This document shows, in pieces, positions 6,641-47,163 of a DNA stretch of 64,000 nucleotides. Every line of letters begins with the position of its first letter. The stretch's first letter is position 1. Origin of the DNA: Clostridia bacterium (lineage in GTDB: Bacteria; Bacillota; Peptococcia; DRI-13; SM3-B62); NCBI GenBank assembly GCA_018432615.1, contig JAHDSQ010000002.1, forward strand, positions 95,054 through 159,053, written 5' to 3'. The translations under genes were made by a program, and so were the position numbers. The notes below the pieces were generated by a model. The model was not told the origin of the DNA, ran no database searches, and worked only from the letters and a program-made list of their open reading frames with translations.

Positions 6641-6654
6641 TGTGTTTGCCCTTA

Positions 6655-7739: not shown

Positions 7740-7774
7740 TATCTCACCTATTTCACTCGTAAGAATAGAATCGG

Positions 7775-8395: not shown

Positions 8396-9079
8396 ATGCT
8401 GGTTATCGCACTTCGTGCTTTCATCCTTTATATGCTTGTTGTGGTAGTAATGCGCATTATGGGTAAACGCCAGATTGGAGAGCTGCAACCCTTTGAACTC
8501 GCTATCGCCATTATGATTTCCGAACTGGCAGCGATTCCCATGTCCGATACGGACATCCCCTTATTAAGTGGCGTTATTCCTATCTTAACCCTGCTTTTTG
8601 CTCAGGTGACACTCTCATATGTAAATATGAAGAGTAATAGCGCTCGTTGTGTACTTTGCGGTCGTCCCAGTATCCTGATCGAAAAGGGACGCATCAGCGA
8701 AAGCGAATTGCGTCGTTTACGCCTAAATATCAATGACCTGATGGAGCAGCTGCGGGTGAAAAACTATGCCGATATTACTAAGGTGGACTACGCTATCATG
8801 GAAACCAACGGACAGCTAAGTATAATCCCCAAAGGCCAAAACCGTTCCCTGGCGCCAAGTGACCTCAATATTAAAACAGCAGACGAAGGATTGCCGCTCA
8901 CCCTCATCGTAGACGGAAAAATAATAAAGCACAACCTCACTATAACAGGAATGACCGAAGAAAAACTGTACCATGCACTACGTCAAGAAGGCGTACAGAG
9001 CATCAAGGAAGTATTCTTTGCCAGCCTTGATAAAACAGGAACGCTACACTGGCAGCGGAAGGAGAGTGCCAAGCCATGA
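8396..9079 (+). CDS. DUF421 (YetF-like) membrane protein, second copy
   Basis: A 227-residue DUF421 protein with the family hallmarks: N-terminal helices, VVMRIMGKRQIGELQPFELAI, then the cytosolic part with SELRRLRLNINDLMEQLRVK, VDYAIMETNGQLSII and LTLIVDGKIIKHNL. It starts at an ATG preceded by TTTGGAGGAACC. It overlaps the DUF4363 gene by ATGA (4 bases), a gene order frequent in Clostridia, which suggests the two products work together at the membrane. By eye it resembles the other copy at 5779 only in the family blocks, so this is not a recent duplication. Confidence 0.88.
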   Translation: MLVIALRAFILYMLVVVVMRIMGKRQIGELQPFELAIAIMISELAAIPMSDTDIPLLSGVIPILTLLFAQVTLSYVNMKSNSARCVLCGRPSILIEKGRISESELRRLRLNINDLMEQLRVKNYADITKVDYAIMETNGQLSIIPKGQNRSLAPSDLNIKTADEGLPLTLIVDGKIIKHNLTITGMTEEKLYHALRQEGVQSIKEVFFASLDKTGTLHWQRKESAKP

Positions 9080-9465
9080 AAAGCTGGTCTGTCCCCCTAG
9101 CGCTACTTTTACTGATATCGTTAATAGTTTCCTTAGGATATGGCAGCTACCATCTCCTGCAAAAAGGATCCACTGAATTACTCCTCCCTGTTGAAAGAAT
9201 AAAAGAGTCCGTTTTGCGGGAGGATTGGCTGTCAGCCGAAAAACACTTTCGTAAAGCAGTAAATACATGGCAAAGAGAAAACAAATACTGGCCGATGCTC
9301 ATTAACCATCAGGAAATGGATAATATCGAGGAATGCCTCAATAGTTTGAAAAGCCATTTGCATTACAAAAACAGCAATGAGGCCGTAGCTGAACTCTACA
9401 ACCTCATTTTCTATATCAAACATATTCCGGAAAAGGAATCTCTTAATCTGAAAAACATCCTTTGA
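9076..9465 (+). CDS. DUF4363 family protein
   Basis: A 129-residue protein with one N-terminal membrane helix (residues 5-26) and a helical outer part rich in Trp, Glu and Leu (WLSAEKHFRKAVNTWQRENKYWPMLINHQEMDNIEECL), matching DUF4363, which is regularly encoded right after a DUF421 gene. No catalytic residues are apparent. The start codon overlaps the stop of the DUF421 gene, so translation is coupled. Function unknown. Confidence 0.8.
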   Translation: MKSWSVPLALLLLISLIVSLGYGSYHLLQKGSTELLLPVERIKESVLREDWLSAEKHFRKAVNTWQRENKYWPMLINHQEMDNIEECLNSLKSHLHYKNSNEAVAELYNLIFYIKHIPEKESLNLKNIL

Positions 9466-33327: not shown

Positions 33328-34530
33328 ATGTCAACCACGCTTATCTTTAACGGAAACCTCATCCCTCTTACCGGCCAAGGAGTTATTGAAAACGGGGCTT
33401 TGCTGATTAAAGACGGGATAATAGCCCAGGTTTTCAAGGGGCCTCTCCCTGATATCAAAGCAACATACAAGATAGATGCCGCAGGAATGTATATCCTCCC
33501 CGGTCTGACAGATTGCCACACGCATCTCATGGAATACGCCGCCGGAGAAATCCACAAGGCCCAGGGCAAAGCCCAAAAAATGGCTGGGATCGCCAACCTC
33601 CTGACCTCTTTAAAATCAGGGGTCACTAACCTGGGGGAACACTGTCTCGGGCATTTTGCCTTCACGCAAACGATTCGTGATTATCAAGAAATCGCCGACA
33701 GTCTCCCTCTAAACGTGCGTCTGGCCTGCGGTTGCTGTTTTATTGGCACAGAGCCCTTGGCTCTTGTCTCCTCCACCAGGCCTGCTCAAGTAATCAAGAA
33801 AACCGAGCTTACTGCCGAGGACTACTATCTGATGGCTTCGGCCTCCGATTTCCCCGGCGAGAACATTTTTATCAATGCCACCGTTGCCAGTTTGCCGCTT
33901 TCCGCTGCCCCACGGGCCGGTGAAATAACCTTTTCCTATGAGGAAATAAAGAAAATAGTTGAAATCTTTCATTCCGCCGGTAAAAAAATCGGCGCTCACA
34001 TTGAAGGCGACGAGGCTGCTTTGATGTTCATCCGGGCCGGCGGCGACGTGATACATCACGGCCATAACTTAAGTCCCCACCTTGCCGATTTAATGCGGGA
34101 AAATAAAGTAGATCTTGTAGTAACTCCACATGCCGGCACCAGCGCCAAACCTACCTCTCCCGTTGAAGTGCTACATTTCCATGAAAGGGGAGTCAAGGTT
34201 GCCCTGGCCAGCGATTCATATATACCGGTCCATCCTGAGGCCGAATGGACAGATTTGCCTTCCGGCTACCTTGCCGGTCCGGAGGATTTTATGACAATAT
34301 GCCAACCCATTGCAAAACACTTTTTAGATAAGGGCGTATCCCTGGAAGACACCCTGAAGCTCTTTACCATCAATGGCTGTGAAATCCTCTCCTTAGAGAA
34401 CGTTGGTTCCTTCAGCCCGGGAGATAAAGGCAACGTCATTATCTGTGACAAAATACCTGTAATTGAAACGACCGACCCCTCTTCGGTTAAATGTGTAGTC
34501 TATGAGGGTGAAGTAATAATACAGAAGTAA
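33328..34530 (+). CDS. Amidohydrolase, metal-dependent (imidazolonepropionase-like)
   Basis: A 400-residue cytosolic amidohydrolase. The metal-binding HxH is in GLTDCHTHLMEYAAG near residue 60; later ligand-type blocks are IGAHIEGDEA, VIHHGHNL and ALASDSYIPVH near 290. It has the composite-domain start and end (NGNLIPLTGQGVIENGALLI and KGNVIICD). Substrate cannot be told. The frame continues upstream to 33307, but the ATG at 33328 has GGAGGGTTAATT directly before it. A second, distinct amidohydrolase is at 61376. No neighbour clarifies its pathway. Confidence 0.85.
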   Translation: MSTTLIFNGNLIPLTGQGVIENGALLIKDGIIAQVFKGPLPDIKATYKIDAAGMYILPGLTDCHTHLMEYAAGEIHKAQGKAQKMAGIANLLTSLKSGVTNLGEHCLGHFAFTQTIRDYQEIADSLPLNVRLACGCCFIGTEPLALVSSTRPAQVIKKTELTAEDYYLMASASDFPGENIFINATVASLPLSAAPRAGEITFSYEEIKKIVEIFHSAGKKIGAHIEGDEAALMFIRAGGDVIHHGHNLSPHLADLMRENKVDLVVTPHAGTSAKPTSPVEVLHFHERGVKVALASDSYIPVHPEAEWTDLPSGYLAGPEDFMTICQPIAKHFLDKGVSLEDTLKLFTINGCEILSLENVGSFSPGDKGNVIICDKIPVIETTDPSSVKCVVYEGEVIIQK

Positions 34531-34604
34531 GAGCTAAACACTAAATTTCTCGCCCTTTTGCCCGATTATATCAGTATAGAGTGTTTTACAAGGGAGGGAA
34601 TGAT

Positions 34605-35654
34605 TTGAAAATATCGGCTTCGACTATGGCCTTATCCGCGGCCCATCTTAAGCTGGAAAAACAAGAAATAAAGGAAAGCCTGACCATCCTGCAGCGACAG
34701 CCACAAGACAACCTCAACCTGAACTCAGTAGATTTGCTGTCTCCGGCAGGAGATGTTTCTTCATACGGCGCTGCTCTCCAAACGGGCAGCACAGAAACTG
34801 AAGCTCTAAACCGGACTGATTCAGATTGCGAAATTACTGAAAAGGACAAACTTAAAATAGCGCTGCTTGAATCCTTTATCGAACACCTTACCGGGAAAAA
34901 ATTCAAAATACGCGTACCTGCACTTCGTCTCCAAGACACAGAACACAATAATACCGCTCCTCAGAAGGCTGAAGCGGTCACAAACGGCTGGGGGTTTATC
35001 TACAGAAGAGATGAGTTGTATTACGAAAAAGAGATGACCTCCTTTAACGCACAAGGCCTCGTGAAAACAACCGATGGACAGGAAATAGAAATAAATCTAA
35101 CCTTTAATATGAGCAGAGAGTTCTTACAGCAAAACAGCATCGAAATTATCGGCGGAAATGCAGCTAAAATCGATCCTCTGGTAATAAATTTCGACGGACA
35201 AGCTCCGGTGCTAACCGGAGAAAAATTCGCCTTCGACCTTGACGCGGACGGAACAACAGAACAAATCTCCTTTTTGCGGAAAAACAGCGGTTTTCTCAGC
35301 CTCGATCTCAACAACAACGAGAAAATCGACGACGGCAGTGAACTGTTTGGCCCAAAATCCGGCGATAGTTTTGCTGACCTCGCTGCCTACGACCATGACG
35401 GTAACGGTTGGATAGATGAAAATGATACCGTTTTCAATAAGCTACGCATTTGGATAAAAGACGAACAGGGCCATGACCAGCTTCTGGCCCTCGGCGAGGT
35501 AGGCATTGGTGCAATATATCTGGGCAGCATCAACACCTTGTTTTCCCTCAATGATATTCAAAATAACAATCTTGGCCAGATCCAACGTACCGGATTATTC
35601 CTTAAAGAAGATAAATCAGCAGGGACAATACAGCATATCGATTTAGCAATCTGA
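34605..35654 (+). CDS. Hypothetical protein with EF-hand-like calcium loops
   Basis: A 349-residue protein with no signal peptide or membrane helix seen. The N-terminus (KISASTMALSAAHLKLEKQE) and middle are helical and charged. The C-terminal third has acidic calcium-loop-like repeats: DLDADGTTEQI, DLNNNEKIDDGSELFG and DHDGNGWIDENDTVFNKLRIW, followed by a conserved-looking LGEVGIGAIYLGSI. This resembles the non-repetitive tail shared by many proteins annotated as hemolysin- or VCBS-type calcium-binding, but no GGxGxD repeats are present. The frame opens at GTG 34581; the TTG at 34605 with AGGGAGGG six bases upstream is the better start. Function unknown. Confidence 0.65.
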   Translation: MKISASTMALSAAHLKLEKQEIKESLTILQRQPQDNLNLNSVDLLSPAGDVSSYGAALQTGSTETEALNRTDSDCEITEKDKLKIALLESFIEHLTGKKFKIRVPALRLQDTEHNNTAPQKAEAVTNGWGFIYRRDELYYEKEMTSFNAQGLVKTTDGQEIEINLTFNMSREFLQQNSIEIIGGNAAKIDPLVINFDGQAPVLTGEKFAFDLDADGTTEQISFLRKNSGFLSLDLNNNEKIDDGSELFGPKSGDSFADLAAYDHDGNGWIDENDTVFNKLRIWIKDEQGHDQLLALGEVGIGAIYLGSINTLFSLNDIQNNNLGQIQRTGLFLKEDKSAGTIQHIDLAI

Positions 35655-35658
35655 ATCA

Positions 35659-36450
35659 TTATGGTCTCATATCCCAAAAACGCTGACTTTTCCCTCTTAT
35701 AATCTCCTTTGTCGGCTCCGGGGGCCAAAGTTGAATATTTCTTCCTTCCCGCATAGCAGCTACCAAATGATAGAAAACATTAGGATTTTTTTTCTTTAAT
35801 TCGTGAATTAACTCTTTTGCTTCTCGTCTTTTTGTATCGCCGTCCAGCGGACAAGGGTTTGCTACCACACTCAAACCCAGCCGCTTGACGGCGCTTTTTA
35901 TTTCGGTTTCACGCAAGTAAACCAAAGGACGAATAACAGTCACCTCGGTCCGGTCTAAATACGTTTTAGGTAAAAACGTTGATATTTGTCCGGAATAAAT
36001 AATACTCATCAAAAAGGTTTCCACGGCATCATCCAGATGATGGGCCAAAGCAACCTTGTTATACCCTTCTTCTCTGGCGTAATTATTAATAATTGCGCGC
36101 CGAAAGTATGAACAACGCGCACATGGTGTTTGCTTATTATTATTTAATATTTCATCCGCTATTTCGGCTCTGGACAAATGATAAGGTATTTCCAGTGCCG
36201 CACACATTTCTTGCAGGGGCCCAAATTCCGTCTCCTCCTGCCTTTTAAACCCAGGGTCAAAGGTAATTGCCCCCAGTGTAACTGAAAAGGGCAAATGCTT
36301 AACAAGCACAGCAAGCGTGTACAAGAGAAGAGAACTGTCTTTTCCCCCCGAGAGCCCGATCAGGACACTATCATCAGGCTCCAGCATCTCAAATTCTACT
36401 ACTGCCCTTTGTACTGTTCTTATTATTCTTCGCGGTAAAGAAAGGCGCAT
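35659..36450 (-). CDS. TtcA-like tRNA 2-thiolation PP-loop ATPase
   Basis: A 263-residue cytosolic enzyme of the TtcA/TtuA group, which puts sulfur on tRNA (2-thiocytidine 32 for TtcA itself). The PP-loop SGGKDSSLLLYTL lies near residue 39. The cluster cysteines are CARC near 116 and the single Cys in NPCPLDGD near 205, the three-cysteine [4Fe-4S] pattern of TtcA. The frame extends to 36513, but the ATG at 36450 with GGGGAATTATAC before it gives a normal length. It is separated from its neighbours by terminators on one side and the convergent gene at 35654 (4 bases away) on the other. Which tRNA base is modified is an inference. Confidence 0.82.
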   Translation of the reverse strand: MRLSLPRRIIRTVQRAVVEFEMLEPDDSVLIGLSGGKDSSLLLYTLAVLVKHLPFSVTLGAITFDPGFKRQEETEFGPLQEMCAALEIPYHLSRAEIADEILNNNKQTPCARCSYFRRAIINNYAREEGYNKVALAHHLDDAVETFLMSIIYSGQISTFLPKTYLDRTEVTVIRPLVYLRETEIKSAVKRLGLSVVANPCPLDGDTKRREAKELIHELKKKNPNVFYHLVAAMREGRNIQLWPPEPTKEIIRGKSQRFWDMRP

Positions 36451-36572
36451 GTATAATTCCCCTTTATCTGTCGGTCTAATAAGTATCTTCCCCGAAGGCC
36501 AGCCTCTTGTCAAGGAAAATCCTACCCCTATGAAAAACTACCCCTTTGCGATCATACAATTCTTGACGAAGA

Positions 36573-36610
36573 GAAGGGAAACTTGGCTTCTGCCAAGTTT
36601 CCCTTCTTTT
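36573..36610. terminator. Terminator after the Pro/Gly/Tyr-rich gene
   Basis: GAAGGGAAACTTGGC pairs perfectly with GCCAAGTTTCCCTTC around a 4-base loop. TTTT follows on the plus strand; on the minus strand, where the gene reads, TCTT follows. It lies 9 bases after the stop at 36615. Confidence 0.7.
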
Positions 36611-36614
36611 AACG

Positions 36615-36902
36615 TTACTCCCTCTCACCGCGAGGGGGTGGACCAAAAATACCAAAGCCCGGACCGAACCCCGGACCGGGACCAGGACCGGGACCTCCCG
36701 GTTTTGAACCGGGTCCGCATGGCGGGCGAGGGCCATAACCGGGTCCGTATGGCGGACAAGGTCCATACCCAGGGCCATAGCCGGGTCCGTATGGCGGACA
36801 AGGCCCATAAGGTCCTGGACCCGATGGTGATTGTTCAATCTGGTACTGGAATTTTTGCTTACAATGAGGGCAAATTATTTCAAGAGGCTTCTGTCTATCC
36901 AT
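36615..36902 (-). CDS. Small Pro/Gly/Tyr-rich protein with one zinc knuckle
   Basis: A 95-residue protein I cannot name. It begins with a short segment and a CPHCKQKF half zinc ribbon (residues 12-19), then a low-complexity tail of YGPGYGP, CPPYGP and GPGPGPG repeats and ends in PPPRGERE. The DNA repeats a 29-base-like unit several times. No membrane or export signal is visible. Start has AAGGAGGAAAACAATCAT before it. A sigma-K-like promoter lies upstream (36946-36974), so a spore coat role is possible but only inferred; Tyr/Gly-rich composition is common among coat proteins. Confidence 0.6.
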   Translation of the reverse strand: MDRQKPLEIICPHCKQKFQYQIEQSPSGPGPYGPCPPYGPGYGPGYGPCPPYGPGYGPRPPCGPGSKPGGPGPGPGPGFGPGFGIFGPPPRGERE

Positions 36903-36945
36903 ATGATTGTTTTCCTCCTTAATCCATTATAATTAGCTGTCCGTA

Positions 36946-36974
36946 CATAATATGAAACAGCTCTTGGAAAGGTT
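36946..36974 (-). promoter_or_regulatory. Sigma-K-like promoter for the Pro/Gly/Tyr-rich gene
   Basis: On the minus strand AACC (36974-36971) matches the sigma-K -35 (mACm), 16 bases follow, then CATATTATG (36954-36946), which matches the CATAnnnTA -10 at all but the last base. Transcription would start near 36939, about 37 bases before the ATG. By eye only. Confidence 0.35.
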
Positions 36975-36983
36975 AACCTTTCT

Positions 36984-37631
36984 TCAGGAACGGATTAAGG
37001 CTTCACACCGAAAAATTGGTTGTCCTAACGACACAAATCTGGTCTCATATTCGGTCATAGCATTTTCTCTCTCAACCCCGGCATGCAAATCATAAGTGAT
37101 CCGGCGGAGTGAAAAACCTTCGTTCACAAAGGCATGCAGGGAATACTCAAAAAAGCTCCGGTTATCTGTTTTAAAGTGTATTTCAGCATTGTCCTTTAAT
37201 ACCTTTTTATAAATACGAAGCATTTCAGGGTATGTCAACCTTCTTTTCTCATGCCTGTTTTTTGGCCAGGGATCACTAAAATTTAAATATAACCGTTCAA
37301 TTTCTCCCGACGCAAAGTAATCCACAAGTTTTTCCGCGTCCCCCAAAAGGAACCTGATGTTTTCGTCTTTCAAATCAGCCTCTTGTGTTTTTCTTACTGC
37401 GTGCCACATGACCTCCGGAACTCTTTCCAAGCCAACATAATTAATTCTCGGATTTTTCGTAGCCATTGCTGTTAAAAAAGCCCCTTTACCTGTCCCCAAT
37501 TCGACGTGTATCGGTTTATTGTTGGCAAATATCTCAGCCCATTTGGTTTTTATGCATTCCGGTTCAAAGTATAAAAGCCCGGTGTATTGTTGTAATTTTT
37601 CCTTTATTCCTGCCTTTCTTCGCAAACGCAT
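36984..37631 (-). CDS. trmB: tRNA (guanine-N7-)-methyltransferase
   Basis: SAM-dependent enzyme that methylates G46 in the variable loop of tRNA. The 215-residue protein shows the SAM-binding ELGTGKGAFL near 42, and the catalytic/tRNA-binding block LYLNFSDPWPKNRHEKRRLT near 115-134. Typical length, intact. ATG at 37631 has AGGAGGGATACA before it. It is a single gene between the Pro/Gly/Tyr-rich gene and a membrane protein gene. Confidence 0.95.
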   Translation of the reverse strand: MRLRRKAGIKEKLQQYTGLLYFEPECIKTKWAEIFANNKPIHVELGTGKGAFLTAMATKNPRINYVGLERVPEVMWHAVRKTQEADLKDENIRFLLGDAEKLVDYFASGEIERLYLNFSDPWPKNRHEKRRLTYPEMLRIYKKVLKDNAEIHFKTDNRSFFEYSLHAFVNEGFSLRRITYDLHAGVERENAMTEYETRFVSLGQPIFRCEALIRS

Positions 37632-37690
37632 TGTATCCCTCCTTGTGCTTCCATCTCAAATGATATAGCCTTTTTTCTTCCGTTGCAACA

Positions 37691-38182
37691 CTAATATATC
37701 GTGATTCTATTCAGGAAATCATGAGTTTTTTCAAACAATAAACCTACAGTAAACCAGACTGGAATATAATCCAACCTGATCAGGCCGTTAATATGATAAC
37801 TGGCTGTTAAACTGTAATCCCAAGGACAGGCTCCTAAAAGAATGCTCAACAGCCAGCCGGTTGCATACTCAATACCGAATATAGCCACAGTCCACACCGT
37901 TCCCCGCACAAACCAATGAACTGTCCGCAGGGCATCATGAATTGGCTCCAGCCAAACTGCCGAACCGTACACAAAAAACATCCATATGTAGGTAAATGCA
38001 GGCATTTGCATGTTGCCCTGCAGTAAAGAAAAAAATCCTGTCCATAATACTTCAAGGGACCATCCCAATATGCCGTAAGCAATAAAATGTGTAATCATGA
38101 TAGTAGTTTGCTTAGAAAAAAAGAAATTATTAACTCCTAAGAAGCATAACAACACGTAACAAAAATATAATAATATTTGCAA
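37691..38182 (-). CDS. PF06541-like membrane protein (putative ABC transporter permease)
   Basis: A membrane protein with about five helices that fits the putative ABC permease family PF06541, of which the conserved start YGILGWSLEVLW and the AIFGIEYATGWLLSILLGACPWDY block are visible. No ATPase gene is adjacent, and in this family the transporter assignment is weak. The start is uncertain: the frame opens at a TTG (38182) with no ribosome site, and the ATG at 38098 would give 135 residues, starting close to where most homologs begin. Function unknown. Confidence 0.6.
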   Translation of the reverse strand: MQILLYFCYVLLCFLGVNNFFFSKQTTIMITHFIAYGILGWSLEVLWTGFFSLLQGNMQMPAFTYIWMFFVYGSAVWLEPIHDALRTVHWFVRGTVWTVAIFGIEYATGWLLSILLGACPWDYSLTASYHINGLIRLDYIPVWFTVGLLFEKTHDFLNRITIY

Positions 38183-38319
38183 AACATATTAAGTCGTTGT
38201 ATACTGAGTGTGTATCCTTGCTTTCTGCTTGTGGGTTTCTAAATCTATTCTCTTTCCTAGATTAGATTTAATGATCCTTTCAAGTAAGCAGGAAAAATTC
38301 TATACTCGGGAGGAAGAGA

Positions 38320-38604
38320 ATGGAAGACAAAACCATTGTATGCAAAGATTGTGGTGAGGAGTTTGTCTGGACCGTACAAGAGCAAGAGTTTTTTGCAGAA
38401 AAAGGATTTAAGAATGAGCCTTCGCGGTGCCTGGTATGTCGCAAAACACGCCGGCAGCAAAACAGCGGAGAACGCCAGCTCTATACGGTGACCTGTTCAA
38501 GCTGCGGCATCGAAACCCAGGTTCCTTTCAAGCCAACCGGCGTAAGACCCGTGTATTGCCGTGACTGTTATCAGAAGCTGGTGCTAGAAAACAACGAAGA
38601 ATAG
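38320..38604 (+). CDS. Double zinc-ribbon protein
   Basis: A 94-residue protein with two four-cysteine zinc sites: CKDCGEEF plus SRCLVC, and TCSSCGIET plus YCRDC. The first half matches the probable zinc-ribbon type found widely in Firmicutes, the second the CxxC-CxxC type with a basic loop. The sites could bind nucleic acid or protein. ATG follows GGGAGGAAGAGA. It is convergent with the small-gene cluster, and a shared bidirectional hairpin follows. Confidence 0.8.
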   Translation: MEDKTIVCKDCGEEFVWTVQEQEFFAEKGFKNEPSRCLVCRKTRRQQNSGERQLYTVTCSSCGIETQVPFKPTGVRPVYCRDCYQKLVLENNEE

Positions 38605-38639
38605 ATAAACTTCTACATACCAGAATACCAAAACAACCT

Positions 38640-38670
38640 GAAGCGTCCTGCCTTTACAGTAGGACGCTTC
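38640..38670. terminator. Bidirectional hairpin between convergent transcripts
   Basis: GAAGCGTCCT pairs with AGGACGCTTC around an 11-base loop. It ends the zinc-ribbon gene on the plus strand and, 6 bases after its stop, the 107-residue gene on the minus strand. U-runs are weak on both sides. Confidence 0.6.
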
Positions 38671-38676
38671 AATAAT

Positions 38677-39000
38677 TTATTGGCTCACCATTCTCATCAA
38701 GGCTTGCCGAGCAATATTTTGAAAAGCAGGGGTTTTTAGCATTTCCAACAGGCTGTCGATTTGTTCCTCACTCAACTGTTGCAATACGACCTGACCATCT
38801 CCTGATTCCGCAATGTTTTTCTCCATTGTTTTTAAGTTTCCTAAAACCTTTAAAATCGAGTCAATCTTATACGTTCCTTCATCCATAAGTTTGCGCACCC
38901 TGCCACAGTTTTCCCTTAACCTGCCAATATCCTCCCCCATAGTCTGCAGGGCAGCAACCGTATTGTCATTTGAACCTGCCACGGCGGTATTATTTCCCAC
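38677..39000 (-). CDS. Small helical protein of the 38.7-40.6 kb cluster (paralog A)
   Basis: A 107-residue all-helical protein without signal or membrane helix; not recognised. Its C-terminus reads EEQIDSLLEMLKTPAFQNIARQ and continues to the end; the paralog at 39701 ends with DDLLELLQTPALQGVLRQ. The middle (RKLMDEGTYKIDSILKVLGNL) looks like a coiled coil. Starts at a GTG (39000) with GGAGGCGAAG before it. A strong hairpin lies 21 bases upstream (39021-39052). It is the last gene of the run. Function unknown; the shared C-terminal motif suggests mutual assembly of the two proteins. Confidence 0.6.
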   Translation of the reverse strand: MGNNTAVAGSNDNTVAALQTMGEDIGRLRENCGRVRKLMDEGTYKIDSILKVLGNLKTMEKNIAESGDGQVVLQQLSEEQIDSLLEMLKTPAFQNIARQALMRMVSQ

Positions 39001-39020
39001 ACCTTCGCCTCCCTTTGGCT

Positions 39021-39052
39021 AAGGGGACGCAGCCATCGACTGCGCCCCCTTA
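39021..39052 (-). terminator. Hairpin between micropeptide and paralog A genes
   Basis: AAGGGGGCGCAG pairs with CTGCGTCCCCTT on the minus strand. No U-run follows, so it may be an mRNA-stabilising stem rather than a terminator. Confidence 0.4.
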
Positions 39053-39059
39053 ACTTCTA

Positions 39060-39176
39060 TTAATAGCCATAGCCGCCAAAGAAACTCGGGAAAAGAAGCA
39101 GAATTAAAATCACCAGGAATAATATTGCAAAGTTACTGCGACCAGGATAGCAGCCGGGAGCACTTGTTTCTGCCAT
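39060..39176 (-). CDS. 38-residue membrane micropeptide (YjcZ-like)
   Basis: A short open frame of 39 codons: MAETSAPGCYPGRSNF, then a hydrophobic core AILFLVILILLLFP, ending in SFFGGYGY. The ribosome site AAAGGAGGTATAAATCA lies right before the ATG (39176), and the aromatic-Gly tail is like the YjcZ-type tiny spore proteins. Its core is close to the core FGIAFLVIFILLFFPGIGI of the 83-residue protein at 39388. Too short for standard gene lists. A sigma-K-like promoter is at 39224-39252. Role unknown; a membrane or coat component is possible. Confidence 0.65.
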   Translation of the reverse strand: MAETSAPGCYPGRSNFAILFLVILILLLFPSFFGGYGY

Positions 39177-39223
39177 TGATTTATACCTCCTTTGTTTTTT
39201 TCGGGATTTTTATCCCTCTTGCC

Positions 39224-39252
39224 TTCTCTATGAGAAGAAGAATGTTTTTGTA
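39224..39252 (-). promoter_or_regulatory. Weak sigma-K-like promoter of the 38-residue micropeptide
   Basis: TACA (39252-39249), 16 bases, CATAGAGAA (39232-39224) on the minus strand; the -10 has one mismatch to CATAnnnTA and the -35 has a T in place of A/C. TSS near 39217 would give a 41-base leader. Confidence 0.3.
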
Positions 39253-39378
39253 CTAATATAAAGGATACGTTGGTCTACAGATACAAGAAAATAGTATTAC
39301 GAGCAGAATGATCCCAAATATTATCCAAATCCAATTGAAACCCCCATAATACTCAACGCCAGCACTTTGTTCCATCAT
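39253..39378 (-). CDS. 41-residue membrane micropeptide
   Basis: A 42-codon frame, MMEQSAGVEYYGGF, then a single membrane helix NWIWIIFGIILLVILF, then SCICRPTYPLY. Two Cys sit at the membrane face. Preceded by AGGAGGGGATT; the first ATG is too close to it and the second (39375) is better spaced. Stop is TAG at 39253-39255. Not recognised. It lies 9 bases after the 83-residue gene's stop, so the two are co-transcribed. Confidence 0.6.
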   Translation of the reverse strand: MMEQSAGVEYYGGFNWIWIIFGIILLVILFSCICRPTYPLY

Positions 39379-39387
39379 AATCCCCTC

Positions 39388-39639
39388 CTAAAAGTTGTTG
39401 GTTTTACTTTTTTGTGTTCCTTCAGTAATGCCTATGCCCGGAAAGAATAGCAGGATAAAGATAACTAAGAATGCTATACCAAATGCTTTGGAATAAGATA
39501 CTTTATGACCTAGTACTGTTATCATCTGCTCCTTTTGCTTTTCCGCCTTTCTTTTAACGGGTTCGGCTTTTTTAAATTGTTCACTTGCGTTTTTTGGTTC
39601 CCCTTGTGTTTCCTGAACGCAACCTGCATCATTAATCAT
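39388..39639 (-). CDS. 83-residue single-pass membrane protein of the cluster
   Basis: An acidic/lysine-rich soluble half (residues 1-48, EQFKKAEPVKRKAEKQKEQM) is followed by a membrane helix (52-70, FGIAFLVIFILLFFPGIGI) and a short polar tail. Not recognised. Its helix resembles that of the 38-residue micropeptide. The start is the ATG at 39639 with GAGGAGGTAGGGGCGG upstream. A good sigma-K-type promoter precedes it at 39664-39692. The gene ends 9 bases before the 41-residue micropeptide starts. Confidence 0.6.
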   Translation of the reverse strand: MINDAGCVQETQGEPKNASEQFKKAEPVKRKAEKQKEQMITVLGHKVSYSKAFGIAFLVIFILLFFPGIGITEGTQKSKTNNF

Positions 39640-39663
39640 CCGCCCCTACCTCCTCTGTGTAAA

Positions 39664-39692
39664 TATTCTATGACCGACATTTATAAAGCGTT
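39664..39692 (-). promoter_or_regulatory. Sigma-K-type promoter of the 39388 gene
   Basis: AACG (39692-39689), 16 bases, CATAGAATA (39672-39664) on the minus strand. The -10 is an exact match to CATAnnnTA. It lies in the 61-base gap between the 39701 gene and this one, with the predicted start 18 bases before the ATG. Confidence 0.5.
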
Positions 39693-39700
39693 ACAATCAT

Positions 39701-40198
39701 TTATTGTTGCGCATTCTCCTCTTTACCGATCAAAATACTTACAAGCAACTGCCGCAATACACCTTGCAACGCCGGTGTCTGCAGTAATTCGAGGAGATCA
39801 TCAACGGTATCCTTTTCTGTCTTCTGATCTGTCACTTGTGCAGCGGAATTAATATGTTTTCTTTCCTCATTCATTTTGATGATTTCAATGATTTGTATTG
39901 CACTTTCCATTTTATAAAGAAGATCGTCAAAGAAGGCTTTGGCAAGGTCGACCTGTCCTCTAATACTATTCAACCCAGACTCCGCCGTTTCAAGTTTGGT
40001 AATTAACACCTCACTTACAACGGCGCAGTTTTTTTGTTCTTTTATTTCATCCTTTGATTCGGCAGAGTCCTCTAAATCTAAAGGCAGCGCCGACGGCCTC
40101 TGCGGCTCATATGTCCTCTGCTTATTTGGATAATACGGCGCACGTCTTGGCATTTCTTGCCTTCTGTCTCCGTTGTAAGTAAATCTTAAACTCGCCAC
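39701..40198 (-). CDS. Small helical protein of the cluster (paralog B)
   Basis: A 165-residue protein with a basic N-terminus (RFTYNGDRRQEMPRRAPYYP), a Ser/Pro/acidic linker, then a long helical part with a coiled-coil look (about 60-130) and a C-terminal helix DDLLELLQTPALQGVLRQLLVSILI, matching the end of the 38677 protein. The open frame extends to 40231; the GTG at 40198 with AGAGGTGAAGCT before it is the better start. A sigma-K-type promoter sits at 40245-40273. Function unknown. Confidence 0.6.
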   Translation of the reverse strand: MASLRFTYNGDRRQEMPRRAPYYPNKQRTYEPQRPSALPLDLEDSAESKDEIKEQKNCAVVSEVLITKLETAESGLNSIRGQVDLAKAFFDDLLYKMESAIQIIEIIKMNEERKHINSAAQVTDQKTEKDTVDDLLELLQTPALQGVLRQLLVSILIGKEENAQQ

Positions 40199-40244
40199 AG
40201 CTTCACCTCTTTTTTGCCCATCTCTTAACATTTTTCTTTATCTT

Positions 40245-40273
40245 TATCATATGAGATCCCTTTAGTAAGTGTG
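40245..40273 (-). promoter_or_regulatory. Sigma-K-type promoter of the 39701 gene
   Basis: CACA (40273-40270), 16 bases, CATATGATA (40253-40245) on the minus strand: exact for both mACm and CATAnnnTA. TSS near 40238, 40 bases before the GTG. It overlaps the 3' end of the gene at 40262. Confidence 0.55.
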
Positions 40274-40546
40274 TTTGGTTCCCAGCAAGCCCAGTACCGA
40301 CGTTAAATCCAGACTGCCCACCTCTAAAGCCTTATTGAGCAGTTTTTGAGCAGCAATTTGTTCCGGGAGGCTTAATTCCTTACCTTGTTGAAAGCTTGTT
40401 AAAATCCTTTGGGCGTATTCCTTATCTTCTCCCTCTAATCCGAGCTGCCCGACAAAATGCTCTATTTCCTCCTGCTTCATTTTTTTAATAGCTTCAACTA
40501 TTTGGGGAAGAGAAGATAAGGCCTTCATAAATTCACTCATGCTCAC
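40262..40546 (-). CDS. Small acidic helical protein, first gene of the cluster
   Basis: A 94-residue helical protein, MSMSEFMKALSSLP start, no signal or membrane helix. It contains KKMKQEEIEHFVGQLGLEGEDKEYA and SLDLTSVLGLLG near the end. Not recognised. The frame opens at 40558 (GTG), but the GTG at 40546 has GGAGAAAGCC before it. A candidate sigma-E promoter lies upstream at 40609-40635. It is the upstream-most gene of a six-gene run reading the same way to 38677. Function unknown. Confidence 0.6.
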   Translation of the reverse strand: MSMSEFMKALSSLPQIVEAIKKMKQEEIEHFVGQLGLEGEDKEYAQRILTSFQQGKELSLPEQIAAQKLLNKALEVGSLDLTSVLGLLGTKHTY

Positions 40547-40608
40547 GGCTTTCTCCACATCCTTTTTTTGTTTTATACAAAATAATCCTATTCAACACAC
40601 ACAATTCT

Positions 40609-40635
40609 TGTGCATGTTTCCGCTTATTAAAATAT
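40609..40635 (-). promoter_or_regulatory. Candidate sigma-E promoter of the small-gene cluster
   Basis: ATATT (40635-40631), 14 bases, CATGCACA (40616-40609) on the minus strand, close to the sigma-E pattern ATATT-N14-CATACAAT. TSS near 40602. By eye only. Confidence 0.3.
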
Positions 40636-40649
40636 ACTTCCGATGATAC

Positions 40650-40688
40650 AAAAAAAGCACCTGACCCCTTAAATCTTGGATCGGTGCT
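40650..40688 (-). terminator. Terminator of sbcC-sbcD transcript
   Basis: AGCACCGATCCAAG...TCAGGTGCT closes a hairpin on the minus strand, followed by TTTTTTT (40656-40650). It starts 16 bases after the sbcC stop at 40704. Confidence 0.75.
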
Positions 40689-40703
40689 CTAAAACTTTTA
40701 TGT

Positions 40704-43700
40704 TCAGCTTTTTACCAGCTTTGTCCCTTCTTGGTGCAGTTTTTTTAACATAATGACATTTTCCGTTAAGTAATCAAAGCTGTCGTCATGACTGATGACA
40801 AACACCTGTCGAAAGCTGGCTGTTATTTCCGGAATAAGCCTGGCCAGATTTGTACGTCTCGTCTCATCAAGATTTGCAGTAGGTTCATCAAAAAAGCCCA
40901 ATCCTATACCTGAAAGATATTTTAACAGTGCTAATCTTACGGCCAACGCCGCTGTCATCTTTTCCCCTCCCGAAAGCTGGCTGAAAACGCGTTCCCGTTC
41001 TTGCCCGTCCAAAACATCTACAATCTTTATATCGTAATCTTCTCCCCAATAAAGAAGAACATTCTCGCCCGCAACTTTACGATATATCATATCCGCTTCT
41101 CTTCCCAGATATTGGCGATACACTTGTGCCATCTTTTCCCCACTCTTATTCAGCACTCTTCTAATCAACCCAAGCAGTTCTTGGGCTTTTTTTTCTGTTT
41201 CCAGTTTCTTCTCTAATGCCCGGATACGCTGTTTAAGCTCTTCCTTTTCTTCGACCAGTTTCTGATATCTTTGAGCATCTAGTAACGCACGCTTAAATTC
41301 TTCTTCTTTTTGGCCTTTCTCTCCCAACAATTCCTCCCTCTTTTTTCGCAGCTTTACAAGTAGCTCCGCACTATAATCCTCTCTTAAGCAACTCAGCCTT
41401 TTTTCCACTTCCTCCGACTCCAGCTGCATCCTTTGCAACTCTGCTTCTGCAAGACTGTCATCCTTTCTCAGTATCTTCTCTTTTTCGGCACTCTCGGAAT
41501 TCTGTACGTACTGACGGTACATCGGCTGTAGTTTTTCAATACTGATCCTATTTTTTTCCCAGCTAACATCTAACCCTTGATATAATTCGGCCTCTTTTTG
41601 CAAAGAAAGGATTTCCTTTTGCATGACACTGAGCTCATTAGTCTTGTTTTCAATTGTTTTGCTTTGCTTCAACTCACTCAAACTGTGTTTGATTTTCTTA
41701 TAGCGTTGTCTCAATAAATCAAGTCTTTCTTCATAGATATTGACTTCTGCTTGGTATTGCCGCTGCAAAGCATCTGATTTTTCCGCAACCTTATTCCAGA
41801 AGGATTCCCCGGAGTTTCTGATAGCTTCGAGCATTTTGATAAAAACAGCATTGCTCGCAGTAAAATCCTCTATTAACTCAGGCGTCTCAAACTCAGTTGA
41901 AGAATTTTGTTTTTCAATATCCCTCAGCCCTCTACCGTAAGCTTGCAAACATTCTTCCAGCTCGTTTTGCAGAGGACGTAGCTCACTCATAAGCTGTTCT
42001 TGCTCCGGCCCGCCTTTTTTCAGTATGGCTTGTACGGCATCTTGTAAACGCTTTTGCTCCTCAGAGGCTTCGATATTTTTCGCCATCTTCCAAACAACAG
42101 TCTGCTCCGTCAGCAGTTCTTTTTCCCATCTATCCTGTTCTGCCCTTATCTTTTCCCATTGTTGTTTTTTATTCCTCAGTTCCAATAATTCTTCCTGGGC
42201 CTTCTTGGCCACAGCCAAATCCTTTTCAAGCCGTAATACCTTTTCTTCCAGTATTGTTTTCCGTGGCAAAATTTTAGCGATTTCTTTCTCAAAATAACCT
42301 GTCAAGTCTCCCTCTACATTTTTACAGGGCATTTGCAAAAAAGGACATAGCCCGCCCCGGGAAGCCTGCTTGTTTTCTTCCAAGGTATCCATCCTTGTCT
42401 TGATATACTGCAGTTCCTGCCTTGCCAAGTCATACTCCTCTGCCAACGATTCTATATTACGAGCCGCCTGCTCCAACTCTTGCCATCTTTTCAACGCTTC
42501 CTCTAACTCTTTTTCTTCCGTCACAAGTCGATAATACCCGGCTAGTTTTGTCTCTATAACTGCTTTCGCCTGTCGTAAATCCTCCAATTGCTTGTCAATA
42601 CCGCGAACGTGCTCCCTTTGCACAGAAACGATTTCCAGGACCCTTTCCATTCTGAGCTTATTTTCAAACTCCTTACCACGTTTACACTCCGCGCGCCGCC
42701 CCTCCTGGTCTACTTCTTCCAATTCTTTTTGCCAGGTCTCCTCTTGTTTGGCCCGATTCTCCTTTACCGCATTTAATTCGGCACAAAGAGCAGCCGCCTT
42801 ATTCTCTAAGGCTTGCAAGCCCGTCTTCACAGTATCTCTTTTTTTCCTTTTGTCTTCCAATTTCCTTTGTATTTCCAACTCCCTACAATACTCTTCGTAA
42901 GCCGGCCTTGCTGCTTCAGCTTTCTTACAGCAAACAACGACGTTCTTTATTTCTTCTGCCAGTTTCTCCCTTTGCCTACGAAGGTTTTCACTCTTTATCT
43001 GCAATAACTGTTGCTGTTTTTCATTTTTTTCCAGATCAATTCTCAATTGTTCCTGAGTATTGATCTTTTCTTCTAAACCTTTTAAGGATTCGTTTACCTC
43101 TCCCAATTTGCTCTTAAGCTTTCCTGCCTTCTCTTGGGAAACCGCCAACTCTGTTTTGCACTCTTCATAATCCTCTGTTTTGACGGCCATTACTTCTTTC
43201 TCGTTCTCTTTTTTCATAATACCGTTTTGAATAAAGGCCTCCAGGCTTCTTGTCTTTTCAAAAGATAAACGGTAGCTTTCCAACTGCAAAATGGTATTAA
43301 ACTTTCTTTTTCTTTCCGACGCTTTTTCCAAAAAAGGAGCAATAAATCTTCCCTGAGAAACGCCGATAATATCTTCGAAAACCAACACAGGTTCTAAATC
43401 TCCCGCCATACCTATGGCTTCCGCCAGCCAGGCTTTAACGTCCTTACTACCGTGCAATTCACTAAGCTCTGTCCCCGTCTGCTCATCAAAAACTACCCAC
43501 GCCCCACCTGTGGGATTACGCAACCGCCGCTCAACACGGTAAATCCTTTCATCTGCCGCTTCAAACACTACCGTTATCGTTCCGCTCTTTTCACCCTCTC
43601 TGATAAACTGACGCTGTGCAGAGAAGGGATGCGCATCAAAAAGTGCATAACCAATGGCCTCAATGATGGTGCTCTTACCGGCACCATTCATTCCGCTGAT

Positions 43701-43781
43701 AAAATTAACACCTTCATAAAAGTTGATTGTTTCCAGAACATAACTTTTTATATTCTCCAGGGTCAAGCTGACAAGTTTCAT
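40704..43781 (-). CDS. sbcC: SbcC/Rad50-like ATPase
   Basis: A 1025-residue SMC-related ATPase for hairpin and DNA-end processing with SbcD. Walker A GMNGAGKSTI is near residue 35, long coiled-coil arms fill the middle, the hook is near 480, and the ABC signature LSGGEKMTAAL with Walker B LGFFDEPTANLDE lies near 935-970. The hook sequence is GLCPFLQMPCKNV, so its cysteines are six apart instead of the usual CxxC. It overlaps sbcD by 4 bases, so it is translated together with it. Length is normal. Confidence 0.88.
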   Translation of the reverse strand: MKLVSLTLENIKSYVLETINFYEGVNFISGMNGAGKSTIIEAIGYALFDAHPFSAQRQFIREGEKSGTITVVFEAADERIYRVERRLRNPTGGAWVVFDEQTGTELSELHGSKDVKAWLAEAIGMAGDLEPVLVFEDIIGVSQGRFIAPFLEKASERKRKFNTILQLESYRLSFEKTRSLEAFIQNGIMKKENEKEVMAVKTEDYEECKTELAVSQEKAGKLKSKLGEVNESLKGLEEKINTQEQLRIDLEKNEKQQQLLQIKSENLRRQREKLAEEIKNVVVCCKKAEAARPAYEEYCRELEIQRKLEDKRKKRDTVKTGLQALENKAAALCAELNAVKENRAKQEETWQKELEEVDQEGRRAECKRGKEFENKLRMERVLEIVSVQREHVRGIDKQLEDLRQAKAVIETKLAGYYRLVTEEKELEEALKRWQELEQAARNIESLAEEYDLARQELQYIKTRMDTLEENKQASRGGLCPFLQMPCKNVEGDLTGYFEKEIAKILPRKTILEEKVLRLEKDLAVAKKAQEELLELRNKKQQWEKIRAEQDRWEKELLTEQTVVWKMAKNIEASEEQKRLQDAVQAILKKGGPEQEQLMSELRPLQNELEECLQAYGRGLRDIEKQNSSTEFETPELIEDFTASNAVFIKMLEAIRNSGESFWNKVAEKSDALQRQYQAEVNIYEERLDLLRQRYKKIKHSLSELKQSKTIENKTNELSVMQKEILSLQKEAELYQGLDVSWEKNRISIEKLQPMYRQYVQNSESAEKEKILRKDDSLAEAELQRMQLESEEVEKRLSCLREDYSAELLVKLRKKREELLGEKGQKEEEFKRALLDAQRYQKLVEEKEELKQRIRALEKKLETEKKAQELLGLIRRVLNKSGEKMAQVYRQYLGREADMIYRKVAGENVLLYWGEDYDIKIVDVLDGQERERVFSQLSGGEKMTAALAVRLALLKYLSGIGLGFFDEPTANLDETRRTNLARLIPEITASFRQVFVISHDDSFDYLTENVIMLKKLHQEGTKLVKS

Positions 43782-45076
43782 GAGTGTTCACCCGCCTCAT
43801 CTGCCACGGACTTTTCTGCCTCATCCTTTGCGAGTCCGGCATGCTTTAAAAGCAGTTCAAACAACTCCGCATCTTCTTCTTCCGCAAGGGACATTTCCTT
43901 TATTTTCTGCACGATACCGACCGCAGTCTCTAAATCGTCGGTCTCCCAAACACGTTCATCGGCTAAAAGCTGTTTTAAGGCGATTCTTTCAATTTCGGCC
44001 CGCCGCGCAAAGCTATTTACTTCTATAGCTTTTCCACCGAAAGTATCGGTATGATTTAAAACCTCCACATACAGGGCATTGTATTTTCCCTTGACCTCCT
44101 CCGCAAGAGCTCCGGTGTCTAACTGTATAGGATTAAAAGCGATCTCACCCCGCAGTTTTATTTGAACCTGCGAGCCACTTACGGGTGGTCGATTATCGAG
44201 TTCTTTCATCATTCCGGCCCGTACGGTGTCTTGCTCCGCAAAACCGTCCACATTCACATCGTACAGGGCAACAGGCCGATGTATAGTACGTATGTACCGG
44301 ACAATTTTTCCCTCACCACCGATGGTTACATGGTAAAATCCCTTTTCCAGTTCCGGATGATATTCGTCTAAATGGACACATTCCAAAGATCCGGGGTTAT
44401 ATATCCAGTCATCTATTTCATACCTGCTGTGGATATGTCCCAAGGCAAAATAGTCCACCTGCCCACGAAAGGGCTCCAGTTCCCCCTTGCTGACACCCCC
44501 TAGATCCTGTCCCATTAATCTGTTTACAGCGGCATGCAGCATGAAAACGGAAAAGTTCTGTCCTTCCCCTTCTTCATCCTCCTGCAAAATGGCAGAAACC
44601 TCCTCCAGCCTGCTTCCGGTCGTAACCCCTAAGTATCCCACTCCATAGACCCTAACGCCGCACAAATCGATCTGGGAACCGTACCTGTCCTTTTCATCCC
44701 AGGGCCGCATCACAAGCTTCCCCTCTTCAAAGGCAGGCGAAAGGAGACAAATATAGCCCTGCTTGTTTAAAAACCCCAGCCAGGAACCCTTGTCCTGGTA
44801 AAGGGCTTTATCGTGGTTGCCCTCAATGGCAATCACAGGAATATTTGCCTCCTTCAAAGGCTCTAATAATTCAACAGCCTGTGTTAAAGTATCGGCATTG
44901 ATAGATCTTTTATGAAAAAAATCACCGCTGATAATGACAAAATCAACCTTTTCGTCTTTTGCGTAACAAACAACCTGTTTAAACCCTTGCGCAAAATCCA
45001 ACAAGCGCTGCGGTTCGTTATTTTGCTTATGTCCCAGATGAATATCCGCACAATGAAGAAAGGAAACGTTTTTCAT
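43778..45076 (-). CDS. sbcD: SbcD/Mre11-like nuclease
   Basis: Calcineurin-type phosphoesterase of 432 residues. The metal-binding blocks are HCADIHLGH (N-terminus), VISGDFFHKRS near 48, IEGNHDKALY near 85, FMLHAAVN near 180 and FALGHIHSRYEI near 210. The C-terminal part is a long helical extension that would bind SbcC. Together with SbcC it cuts DNA hairpins and ends. It heads the two-gene run, ATG at 45076 with CCTGATGAAAAAC after it and a modest ribosome site. Some annotations would call it DNA repair exonuclease. Confidence 0.9.
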   Translation of the reverse strand: MKNVSFLHCADIHLGHKQNNEPQRLLDFAQGFKQVVCYAKDEKVDFVIISGDFFHKRSINADTLTQAVELLEPLKEANIPVIAIEGNHDKALYQDKGSWLGFLNKQGYICLLSPAFEEGKLVMRPWDEKDRYGSQIDLCGVRVYGVGYLGVTTGSRLEEVSAILQEDEEGEGQNFSVFMLHAAVNRLMGQDLGGVSKGELEPFRGQVDYFALGHIHSRYEIDDWIYNPGSLECVHLDEYHPELEKGFYHVTIGGEGKIVRYIRTIHRPVALYDVNVDGFAEQDTVRAGMMKELDNRPPVSGSQVQIKLRGEIAFNPIQLDTGALAEEVKGKYNALYVEVLNHTDTFGGKAIEVNSFARRAEIERIALKQLLADERVWETDDLETAVGIVQKIKEMSLAEEEDAELFELLLKHAGLAKDEAEKSVADEAGEHS

Positions 45077-45111
45077 CAGGTTAATTCACTCCCGCTACAA
45101 TCACTTTCCCA

Positions 45112-45624
45112 TCACCACAATTTTATCCTATCAAGCGGCCAATAAGTGACCAAAGCCTTGCCCTTTACGCTTTCAAAATCCACAAAGCCCCAGGCGTGGG
45201 AATCAAAAGATCTGTTTCGATTATCGCCTAAGACAAATATTTTTTCTTCGGGCACGATGGTTTTTTCAAATGTATAACTCATTTCCTCCGCCAAATAAGG
45301 CTCGTCCTGAGGATTATCATTAATATACAGCTTACCGTCCTTTATTTCGACCTCATCGCCGGGCAAAGCAATAACTCTCTTAATCAGATCATCCTCCAGC
45401 TGTGACTGCTCGGGCGGCTCGAATACAATAACTTCACCTCTTTCAATACCTTTAAATCGGTGGGTTATTCTTTCCACAAACAGTCTGTCACCTGGTTGAA
45501 TACTGGGAACCATCGAAACACTGGGAACTATCCTATTATCAAGAATAAATGACCTGATAATAACCACCAAAATAAGCGCCACAAGAATAACTTGAATCCA
45601 CTCTTTTATTTCCTGCCTGTTCAT
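45112..45624 (-). CDS. lepB: Signal peptidase I
   Basis: Type I signal peptidase of 170 residues, short as in Gram-positives. A membrane anchor (9-28) is followed by the catalytic Ser37 in PSVSMVPSIQPGD and the general-base Lys82 in LIKRVIALPGD. The substrate-binding box GDNRNRSFDSHAWGFV comes at about 137. It should sit outside the membrane and cleave exported preproteins. ATG at 45624 has TCGAGGAGTTTATG context. Alone between sbcD and the transporter pair. Confidence 0.93.
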   Translation of the reverse strand: MNRQEIKEWIQVILVALILVVIIRSFILDNRIVPSVSMVPSIQPGDRLFVERITHRFKGIERGEVIVFEPPEQSQLEDDLIKRVIALPGDEVEIKDGKLYINDNPQDEPYLAEEMSYTFEKTIVPEEKIFVLGDNRNRSFDSHAWGFVDFESVKGKALVTYWPLDRIKLW

Positions 45625-45738
45625 AAACTCCTCGACACCACTTTTCTTTTTTCAAATATCTAATCGCTCTGACTTCTTAGTATACAGGAAAATTAAGTAA
45701 ATGTTAAGACCCTAGTCCCGCATTTTTGAGGTCCACTT

Positions 45739-47163
45739 TTACAACATAGGCAACAGAAACGAGAAAACCACAACAACAATAAGGTTAAAACCAATATTTA
45801 ATCTGGGAACGACATTCCAAGAGCTTTCACCGGATATTCCCGCCATTAATAAGGATATAGCTGTGAAGGGTGAAGATGTGGCAGCAACGATGTACCCCAG
45901 TAATAGCATTTGAGCAAAAGCCACCGGAGATAATCCCAAAGCCGCAGGTGTCAAAATAGAGGACAAGACCGAAACACTGACGATGGGATGGATGCCAACA
46001 AGAGAAATAATCCCCATAATGACAATTACCGTGAAAACAGTCAGCCACACAAACGGTATCTTATCCAGAGGTATATATGAAAAGAGCATGTTGCCGACTC
46101 CTGTCATATCTAAGACTTTACCGAAAAAACCAATAGCGGCAAAAAGTATTACCTCATCCTTAATACTTGGCAGTTTTACCTTAAAAAACCATAAGGTCTG
46201 TTTCCTGTATACATCAAGTTTCTGAAAAACAACGGCTAAAAGCAAAGGATAAATAGCTGCTGTAATAATGATAACCGCCAAAAAGCTTAAAGCAAAAGAT
46301 GCATTGAACATTACAACAAATAGAATCAACCCTAAAAGTACAAAAAACAAGTGTCGGAGGGAACCTTCAGAAGCTGTGATGACCTGTCTTACATCGCTTG
46401 ATTTTTCTTGTTCTTTAGTCCCCTTCTCTTCCATATCTTCTAAGACCTCAGGTAGTACTCTTGTGGTATCCTTTCTGTCACGATGCAAAACAAAAAACGC
46501 TATATTTACCAACAACATATACACCACCGAAAGCAAAAAACCACTTGGCGCAATCTCCAGCCAATCAAGTCCGGTACAAGTAATAACAGTAGCTACAGCA
46601 ATATAGTTTGGTGCCCACAGCACTGCGGCCATGTTACCCCTGACAAGGGCCTGATAGAAACCATGCTTTACCTCGTATCTCTCAGCATTTCTTCTCAGCA
46701 AATTATCCAGCATATAATCGGTGGCTATATTCAAAATAGTACTTATCAGCAACGTAAGCCATGATACCAGGATTAAAAAACCGCTTTTGCTTTGGACCCT
46801 TTTTACAAACAATGCATTGATGGACTCCCGATAATCTTTGTAAGTCAGTGCTACGGAGAAAAGAGGTAACGAAAGAAAAAAGGCGACTAAACCGCCATTA
46901 GCGGTAAAAGCCGTTATCCATCCTCTGGTATCTACGCCGCCAAAAACCAGAGCAATAATTCCCGCCCCAAAAAGAAAAACAGAAATGATGCGAGTCGAAT
47001 ATTTAGCCTTCGGAAAGGCTTGCAAGACAAGAAGCAGTAAAATAAAAGCATACGCATAAACCAAAAATTTGATAGAAAAAAATTCACCCAATAGGTAAGT
47101 TACTATAAAAATCAGGTATAGAATCCACATCTTATGTTCAAAACGTTCTAATAACTTTATCAT
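45739..47163 (-). CDS. Polytopic transporter-like membrane protein, copy 1
   Basis: A 474-residue protein with about 12 hydrophobic segments split by a charged loop (EVLEDMEEKGTKEQEKSSDV, near residue 240). The general shape recalls ArsB/NhaD-like ion transporters, but I recognise no motif and give no substrate. Distinctive blocks are ANGGLVAFFLSLPLFSVALTYKDYR and SSPFTAISLLMAGISGESSWNVVPR. It is closely similar, block for block, to the 463-residue protein at 47374. The frame opens at 47262; the ATG at 47163 with GAGGAATAATC upstream is preferred. Confidence 0.65.
   Translation of the reverse strand: MIKLLERFEHKMWILYLIFIVTYLLGEFFSIKFLVYAYAFILLLLVLQAFPKAKYSTRIISVFLFGAGIIALVFGGVDTRGWITAFTANGGLVAFFLSLPLFSVALTYKDYRESINALFVKRVQSKSGFLILVSWLTLLISTILNIATDYMLDNLLRRNAERYEVKHGFYQALVRGNMAAVLWAPNYIAVATVITCTGLDWLEIAPSGFLLSVVYMLLVNIAFFVLHRDRKDTTRVLPEVLEDMEEKGTKEQEKSSDVRQVITASEGSLRHLFFVLLGLILFVVMFNASFALSFLAVIIITAAIYPLLLAVVFQKLDVYRKQTLWFFKVKLPSIKDEVILFAAIGFFGKVLDMTGVGNMLFSYIPLDKIPFVWLTVFTVIVIMGIISLVGIHPIVSVSVLSSILTPAALGLSPVAFAQMLLLGYIVAATSSPFTAISLLMAGISGESSWNVVPRLNIGFNLIVVVVFSFLLPML

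Follow-up and report, generated by a model that had tools for sequence, protein, structure and literature searches.

Six small clustered genes with sigma-K-type promoters as a probable late mother-cell sporulation module in clostridia

The window, by which we mean the whole 64,000-nucleotide stretch of DNA that was analysed, carries a cluster of six small genes (here called A to F) that we take, with somewhat better than even confidence, to be a late mother-cell sporulation module in which small membrane proteins made under sigma-K would fasten coat material to the outer forespore membrane. In kind, the products would very probably belong with the small spore-envelope proteins under sigma-K control, such as YjcZ or CotM, although the families themselves are undescribed in the libraries and literature that we searched.

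Six genes and their products

All six frames lie on the minus strand, from about 40558 down to 38677, and end at the stops given in the earlier note, which had listed six short same-strand frames; only the starts of A and B need moving. Gene A (40262-40540) encodes an acidic, helical and soluble protein of 92 residues that is kept in 11 genomes with 10 invariant columns, and the alignment places its start probably at ATG 40540 and not at GTG 40558, which would be too early. For gene B (39701-40198; 165 residues), the sequence suggests GTG 40198 (MASLRFTYNGDRR, with GAGGTGA just upstream) as the start instead of ATG 40231, because the conserved N-terminal motif MASLRFxYDGxRR lies there behind this ribosome site; a variable linker then leads to a C-terminal helical domain that B has in common with F. 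Alignment and hydropathy describe the product of gene C (39388-39639; 83 residues) as a charged N-terminal part followed by one membrane helix and an FFPGIG tail. Gene D (39253-39378), which begins 9 nt after C, and gene E (39060-39176) encode single-pass membrane proteins of 41 residues (from the alignment) and 38 residues, respectively, the latter being one of a multi-copy family that shares an anchor helix (see below). Gene F (38677-39000) encodes a helical protein of 107 residues, a paralogue of the C-terminal domain of B. Besides the site of B, ribosome sites are found before E (AAGGAGGT), C (AGGAGGT), D (AGGAGG) and F (GGAGG), while that of A (GGAG) is weak and distant.

The frames A to F are real coding frames that are conserved as proteins: differences from a sister genome are biased toward third codon positions, and all six genes are also present elsewhere in the order, in other families. 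Counted at first, second and third positions, the differences number 2/0/14 for A, 0/1/2 for E and 0/1/8 for F, the three genes that have the same length in both genomes. C, D and E are predicted single-pass membrane proteins with maximum 19-residue hydropathy values of 2.69, 2.88 and 2.82, against at most 1.24 for A, B and F, which lack any strongly hydrophobic stretch. The earlier note's count of three single-pass membrane proteins agrees with this.

Profile searches of all six proteins, which the earlier note had called for, found no family match in the Pfam and NCBIfam libraries, no significant PDB sequence match was obtained for A to F in single and profile searches, and neither the set nor its motifs are described in the open-access literature searched. 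A match of four D members to a LITAF-like zinc ribbon (E 6e-4) was judged a chance match of hydrophobic sequence. Comparison of profiles aligned F with the C-terminal domain of B over 97 columns (hhalign, E 9e-16) and so showed the two to be a single domain, for which AlphaFold models of both proteins propose one long helix and two short ones at low confidence; these low-confidence models had no fold match in the PDB. The F profile weakly resembles, over residues 10 to 100, the solved chains of YjlC (E 0.35) and of an NDH-2 membrane coupling protein (E 0.72), which we take to be DUF1641 proteins. Descent of F and B from DUF1641 is nonetheless not supported, since its Pfam model PF07849 finds neither of them at E 1e-5 in 25 genomes that include all carriers of the cluster.

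Promoters of the sigma-K type

The assignment of the cluster to sigma-K, for which promoter sequences make a strong case, starts from the gaps before A, B, C, E and F, which were extracted as 59 upstream regions from 14 genomes. The pattern AC-N16/17-CATANNNT occurs in 40 of these 59 regions, compared to 0.5 in shuffled sequences and 1 on the reverse strand, and in 35 of 51 once two near-duplicate genomes are left out. AC stands 17 nt before CATA far more commonly than at any other distance, and 39 of the 56 CATA boxes have it at 16 to 17 nt. Column counts read GCAC-N17-CATA(G/T)NAT(A/G) and match the published sigma-K consensus with KCACM as -35 and GCATANNNTA as -10 block (PMC3416734), the two blocks lying 14 to 16 nt apart (PMC517825). 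By contrast, among 180 other genes of these loci, taken as controls, only 4 have the motif upstream, and three of these four belong to the GPGYGP-rich, coat-like family of a gene at 36615-36902 of the window. It is also found upstream of gene D, used as a control because it follows close behind C, in only 1 of 12 genomes, and C and D probably share one promoter.

Within the window, the candidate promoters of B and C are clear, that of E is weak and that of A degenerate. The sigma-K-type promoter of B (40245-40273, minus strand, as all in this paragraph) reads CAC-N17-CATATGATA, and AC-N16/17-CATA is kept there in 12 of 13 genomes tested; the one serving C and D (39664-39692) reads AAC-N17-CATAGAATA and is conserved in 11 of 12. 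A weaker, sigma-K-like sequence precedes E (39224-39252; TAC-N17-CATAGAGAA), and the degenerate one before A (40583-40612) has CAC-N17-AATAGGATTA here and CATAGGATTA in the sister genome. Upstream of F, no sigma-K motif was found in the window. Directly before the ribosome site of F, the sequence of the gap between E and F can be read as a GC-rich hairpin without a T run (39021-39051), and several relatives have terminator-like hairpins at the same place; this element may limit read-through from E into F. A scan of 34000-46000 against Rfam gave no hit.

The earlier note had seen promoter-like sequences for both sigma-E and sigma-K in these gaps. The sigma-K part is borne out before five of the six genes, and the own genome encodes a clear sigK (TIGR02846, 350 bits against a cut-off of 298.65). 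The sigma-E part had to be given up: a sigma-E promoter would have TYATATTT as -35 block 12 nt (+/- 1) before the -10 block, which puts its core ATA at 15 to 17 from CATA, and this core is correctly placed in 1 of the 56 CATA boxes. As a separate observation, seven genomes (G002, G004, G005, G009, G012, G020 and G022) have partial sigK matches that break near model positions 109 to 149, some of them inside contigs, and G002 has, in addition to an intact copy, one 5' part and two 3' parts separated by more than 100 kb. The pattern resembles a skin-type interruption of sigK, although contig ends may account for some cases.

Because the motif had first been spotted by eye in these same sequences, two further motif tests were made. 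Copies of E that lie outside the cluster carry the sigma-K motif in 11 of 12 cases, and in the twelfth AC-N17-CATA is present but the T is missing. As a raw count over the own genome, the strict sigma-K pattern is not enriched (16 against 15 for the reversed pattern), so that only its placement before genes is informative. Strict sites just 5' of same-strand genes precede B and C of the cluster, YabG, a LysM/peptidoglycan-binding protein, a CotS-like protein (with a match below the curated cut-off) and one doubtful frame of 38 residues.

Two other genes of this genome were noted beside sites of the same type. One is the gene at 36615-36902 (minus strand), downstream of TrmB, which is served by a sigma-K-type promoter at 36946-36974 and encodes a GPGYGP- and Cys-rich protein of 95 residues with a CxxC N-terminus and no family match in Pfam or NCBIfam; it is kept in the sister genome and in G004 and is probably a coat gene of the cluster's regulon. 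The other encodes a collagen-like protein (RGATGATGPAGPPGPRG) that starts 159 nt behind a sigma-K-type site (L138, site at 1501) and is a probable exosporium-type gene.

Distribution and the anchor helix of E

Gene B was found in 13 relatives among 150, all of the same order (families f1-f6 and f8), and the profiles of F and A gave clear matches only in this order when 398 genomes across the phylum were searched. The gene order A-B-[H]-C-D-E-F recurs in the relatives, where individual genes are occasionally missing or duplicated. Gene C was found in 13 of 25 genomes. The additional gene H, which five genomes have between B and C but which the own cluster lacks, is Hsp20-like on weak evidence, that is, by non-significant matches to Pfam HSP20 (E 0.077) and ArsA_HSP20 (E 0.03) and of its profile to solved small heat-shock proteins in the PDB (E 0.04). 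On the 3' side, most clusters are followed by a convergent zf_Tbcl gene, a CmpB-like membrane protein and TrmB. In the window, the first of these encodes a double zinc-finger protein (38320-38604, plus strand; zf_Tbcl and CxxC-x17-CxxC), which is convergent to the cluster in nearly all carriers and is separated from F by a terminator hairpin (38639-38671).

Two variations on this arrangement were seen. In G016 (L042, 8277-9842), an insertion of two genes on the opposite strand sets E and F 1.8 kb apart, and F retains its own sigma-K-type promoter. Candidate A-B-like pairs of the same gene order occur in G079 and G155, two SpoIVA-positive genomes of another class (loci L051, 1465-2488, minus strand, and L087, 1089-2133, plus strand); their similarity to the F profile is confined to a C-terminal motif of 25 residues (LExxKSPxFxxxxxQL; E 1.5e-5, probability 80%), and the profile comparison gave nothing firm for A.

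The idea that the set keeps to spore formers was examined in 25 genomes of the one order with SpoIVA as the marker. All 14 carriers have SpoIVA, and the cluster is present in 14 of 19 SpoIVA-positive and 0 of 6 SpoIVA-lacking genomes. Within this sample, co-occurrence is thus limited to genomes with SpoIVA, as had been expected, and the gene set, whose presence in non-sporulating relatives would have spoken against a sporulation role, was not encountered in the six that lack SpoIVA. The chance of this association is about 0.003 by the hypergeometric distribution, though it is confounded by descent because all six negatives come from one family. Since five SpoIVA-positive relatives do without the cluster, it is not needed for sporulation as such.

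These five genomes, together with flanks made of housekeeping genes (TrmB, a PP-loop protein and an SbcCD-like nuclease), could also be explained if the proteins made up a membrane complex of vegetative cells that plays no part in sporulation and if the promoters were coincidental. We regard this as very improbable given the motif frequency over that expected from shuffling, the spacer peak at 17, the independent count on E copies outside the cluster and the failure of all SpoIVA-lacking relatives to carry the genes.

The strongest hint as to what the membrane proteins might do comes from the E family, whose helix may act as a membrane plug able to carry coat-like sequence. In G008, G014 and G016, the E helix ends proteins with short, GPGYGP- and Cys-rich, collagen-like N-terminal parts. 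We tentatively consider that FAIxFLVILILLLFPxFFGG could be a portable helix that occurs both in free proteins of 38 to 44 residues and at the C-terminus of collagen-like proteins rich in Gly, Pro, Tyr and Cys, where it would serve as a plug, with sigma-K in control of all of them. A layer of such plugs might then lie in the outer forespore membrane and, with B and F as bridges, tether the coat in a group of bacteria where CotE and SpoVID are not found.

The size and hydrophobicity of C, D and E are, however, also typical of membrane-active peptides, and together with the sigma-K timing they would suit holin-like or membrane-weakening peptides that help the mother cell to lyse and set the spore free, while A, B and F would be their partners or keep them in check. 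This seems unlikely to us: the cluster contains no lysin gene, and a structural role fits better because the E helix occurs in fusions with collagen-like sequence of the coat type and a genome has several copies of it.

The own genome has three further E copies, on contigs C48, C8 and C58. The copy on C8 adjoins the gene of a spore germination permease of the GerA type, and the one on C58 lies directly after spoVAE and a DUF1657 gene, which would be in keeping with accessory proteins of the SpoVA and GerA membrane complexes in germination or spore small-molecule traffic. SpoVA and GerA are, however, made in the forespore and sited in the inner membrane, whereas the genes studied here have the promoters of mother-cell sigma-K genes, and the cluster itself is not beside genes of the SpoVA or GerA type; we therefore hold a germination role to be quite unlikely and keep to coat tethering as the preferred reading.

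Some further neighbourhoods were recorded in passing. A sporulation-type neighbourhood also lies at 5779-9465 of the window, with a Spore_YtfJ protein (6655-7059), two DUF421/YetF proteins (5779-6507 and 8396-9079) and a DUF4363 protein (9076-9465), and in G006 (L103) an E copy adjoins a DUF4363-DUF421 pair. In G123 (L104) and G082 (L105), two genomes of another order that have SpoIVA, tandem membrane proteins of 29 to 33 residues (MGFFGxxGNSSLVFLIILILLLFDG) are arrayed with a helical protein of 98 to 100 residues near ferritin-like and DUF1657-like genes, some with sigma-K-like promoters; their helix (SSLVFLIILILLLF) resembles that of E at E 2e-4 to 5e-4.

A proposed role and its likeness to known systems

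We propose four steps. First, sigma-K polymerase would use a separate AC-N17-CATANNATR promoter for each of A, B, C-D and E, with F having its own promoter in some genomes and presumably being read from upstream in others including this one. Second, the mother cell would produce the proteins at the time of coat assembly around the engulfed forespore. This would follow from the first step and from what is established about sigma-K genes, which are active in the mother cell at that stage. For these two steps together our confidence is high. Third, C, D and E might enter the outer forespore membrane by their single helix and expose Tyr/Cys/Gly ends that could be cross-linked; E in particular would be a general-purpose anchor, given that related genomes have its helix at the end of collagen-like proteins rich in Gly, Pro, Tyr and Cys. 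Fourth, A, B and F might be helical linkers that bridge this membrane layer to the coat, and the Hsp20-like H could serve as an assembly chaperone in lineages that have it. We consider the chances of the third and fourth steps to be evenly balanced. The spore-envelope location of the products is what we infer from the sequences, and the proposal of a mother-cell or spore-envelope system is thereby upheld as far as sigma-K, conservation and the SpoIVA evidence go, without the sigma-E control and the YjcZ/YhcN likeness that had been part of it.

According to Galperin et al. (PMC3533761), CotE, SafA and other coat organisers of Bacillus were not seen in clostridia, and the coats of other Firmicutes probably include proteins that are still to be identified. 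The cluster may fill some of this clostridial gap in coat proteins with six or seven undescribed families and a shared anchor helix. Its promoter signature offers a means to find more members, and the attachment of the coat to the forespore in clostridia becomes a testable question.

Of the systems already known, YjcZ-type tiny sporulation proteins are like the membrane proteins of the cluster in being small, with one hydrophobic helix and Gly/Tyr-rich ends, and yjcZ is a sigma-K gene as well (PMC517825). The likeness to YjcZ/YhcN-type proteins that had been suggested does not extend to profiles: at an E-value limit of 10, NCBIfam gave no match for 9 E members and none relevant for 12 D members, and no Pfam match exceeded the cut-off. 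Gene H of the relatives recalls Hsp20-type coat proteins such as CotM as a weak Hsp20-like domain within a sigma-K gene set, cotM being a sigma-K gene too (PMC517825), but differs in that its Hsp20 match is not significant and that it is absent from the own cluster. The E protein is unlike SpoVM, an amphipathic peptide of another family, in its full hydrophobic helix and in sigma-K instead of sigma-E timing, and SpoIVA is present besides in these genomes. What may be comparable is the way of working, since in the SpoVM/SpoIVA basement layer the coat is fastened to the outer forespore membrane through a membrane-associated protein of very small size (PMC7911427). The coat genes of the Bacillus subtilis sigma-K regulon (PMC517825, PMC3416734) differ from the cluster, which has no sequence relative among described coat families, is specific to one order and packs several promoters into 2 kb, yet they have the same promoter blocks and spacing, and small, lineage-specific and uncharacterised products are typical of coat genes (PMC3533761).
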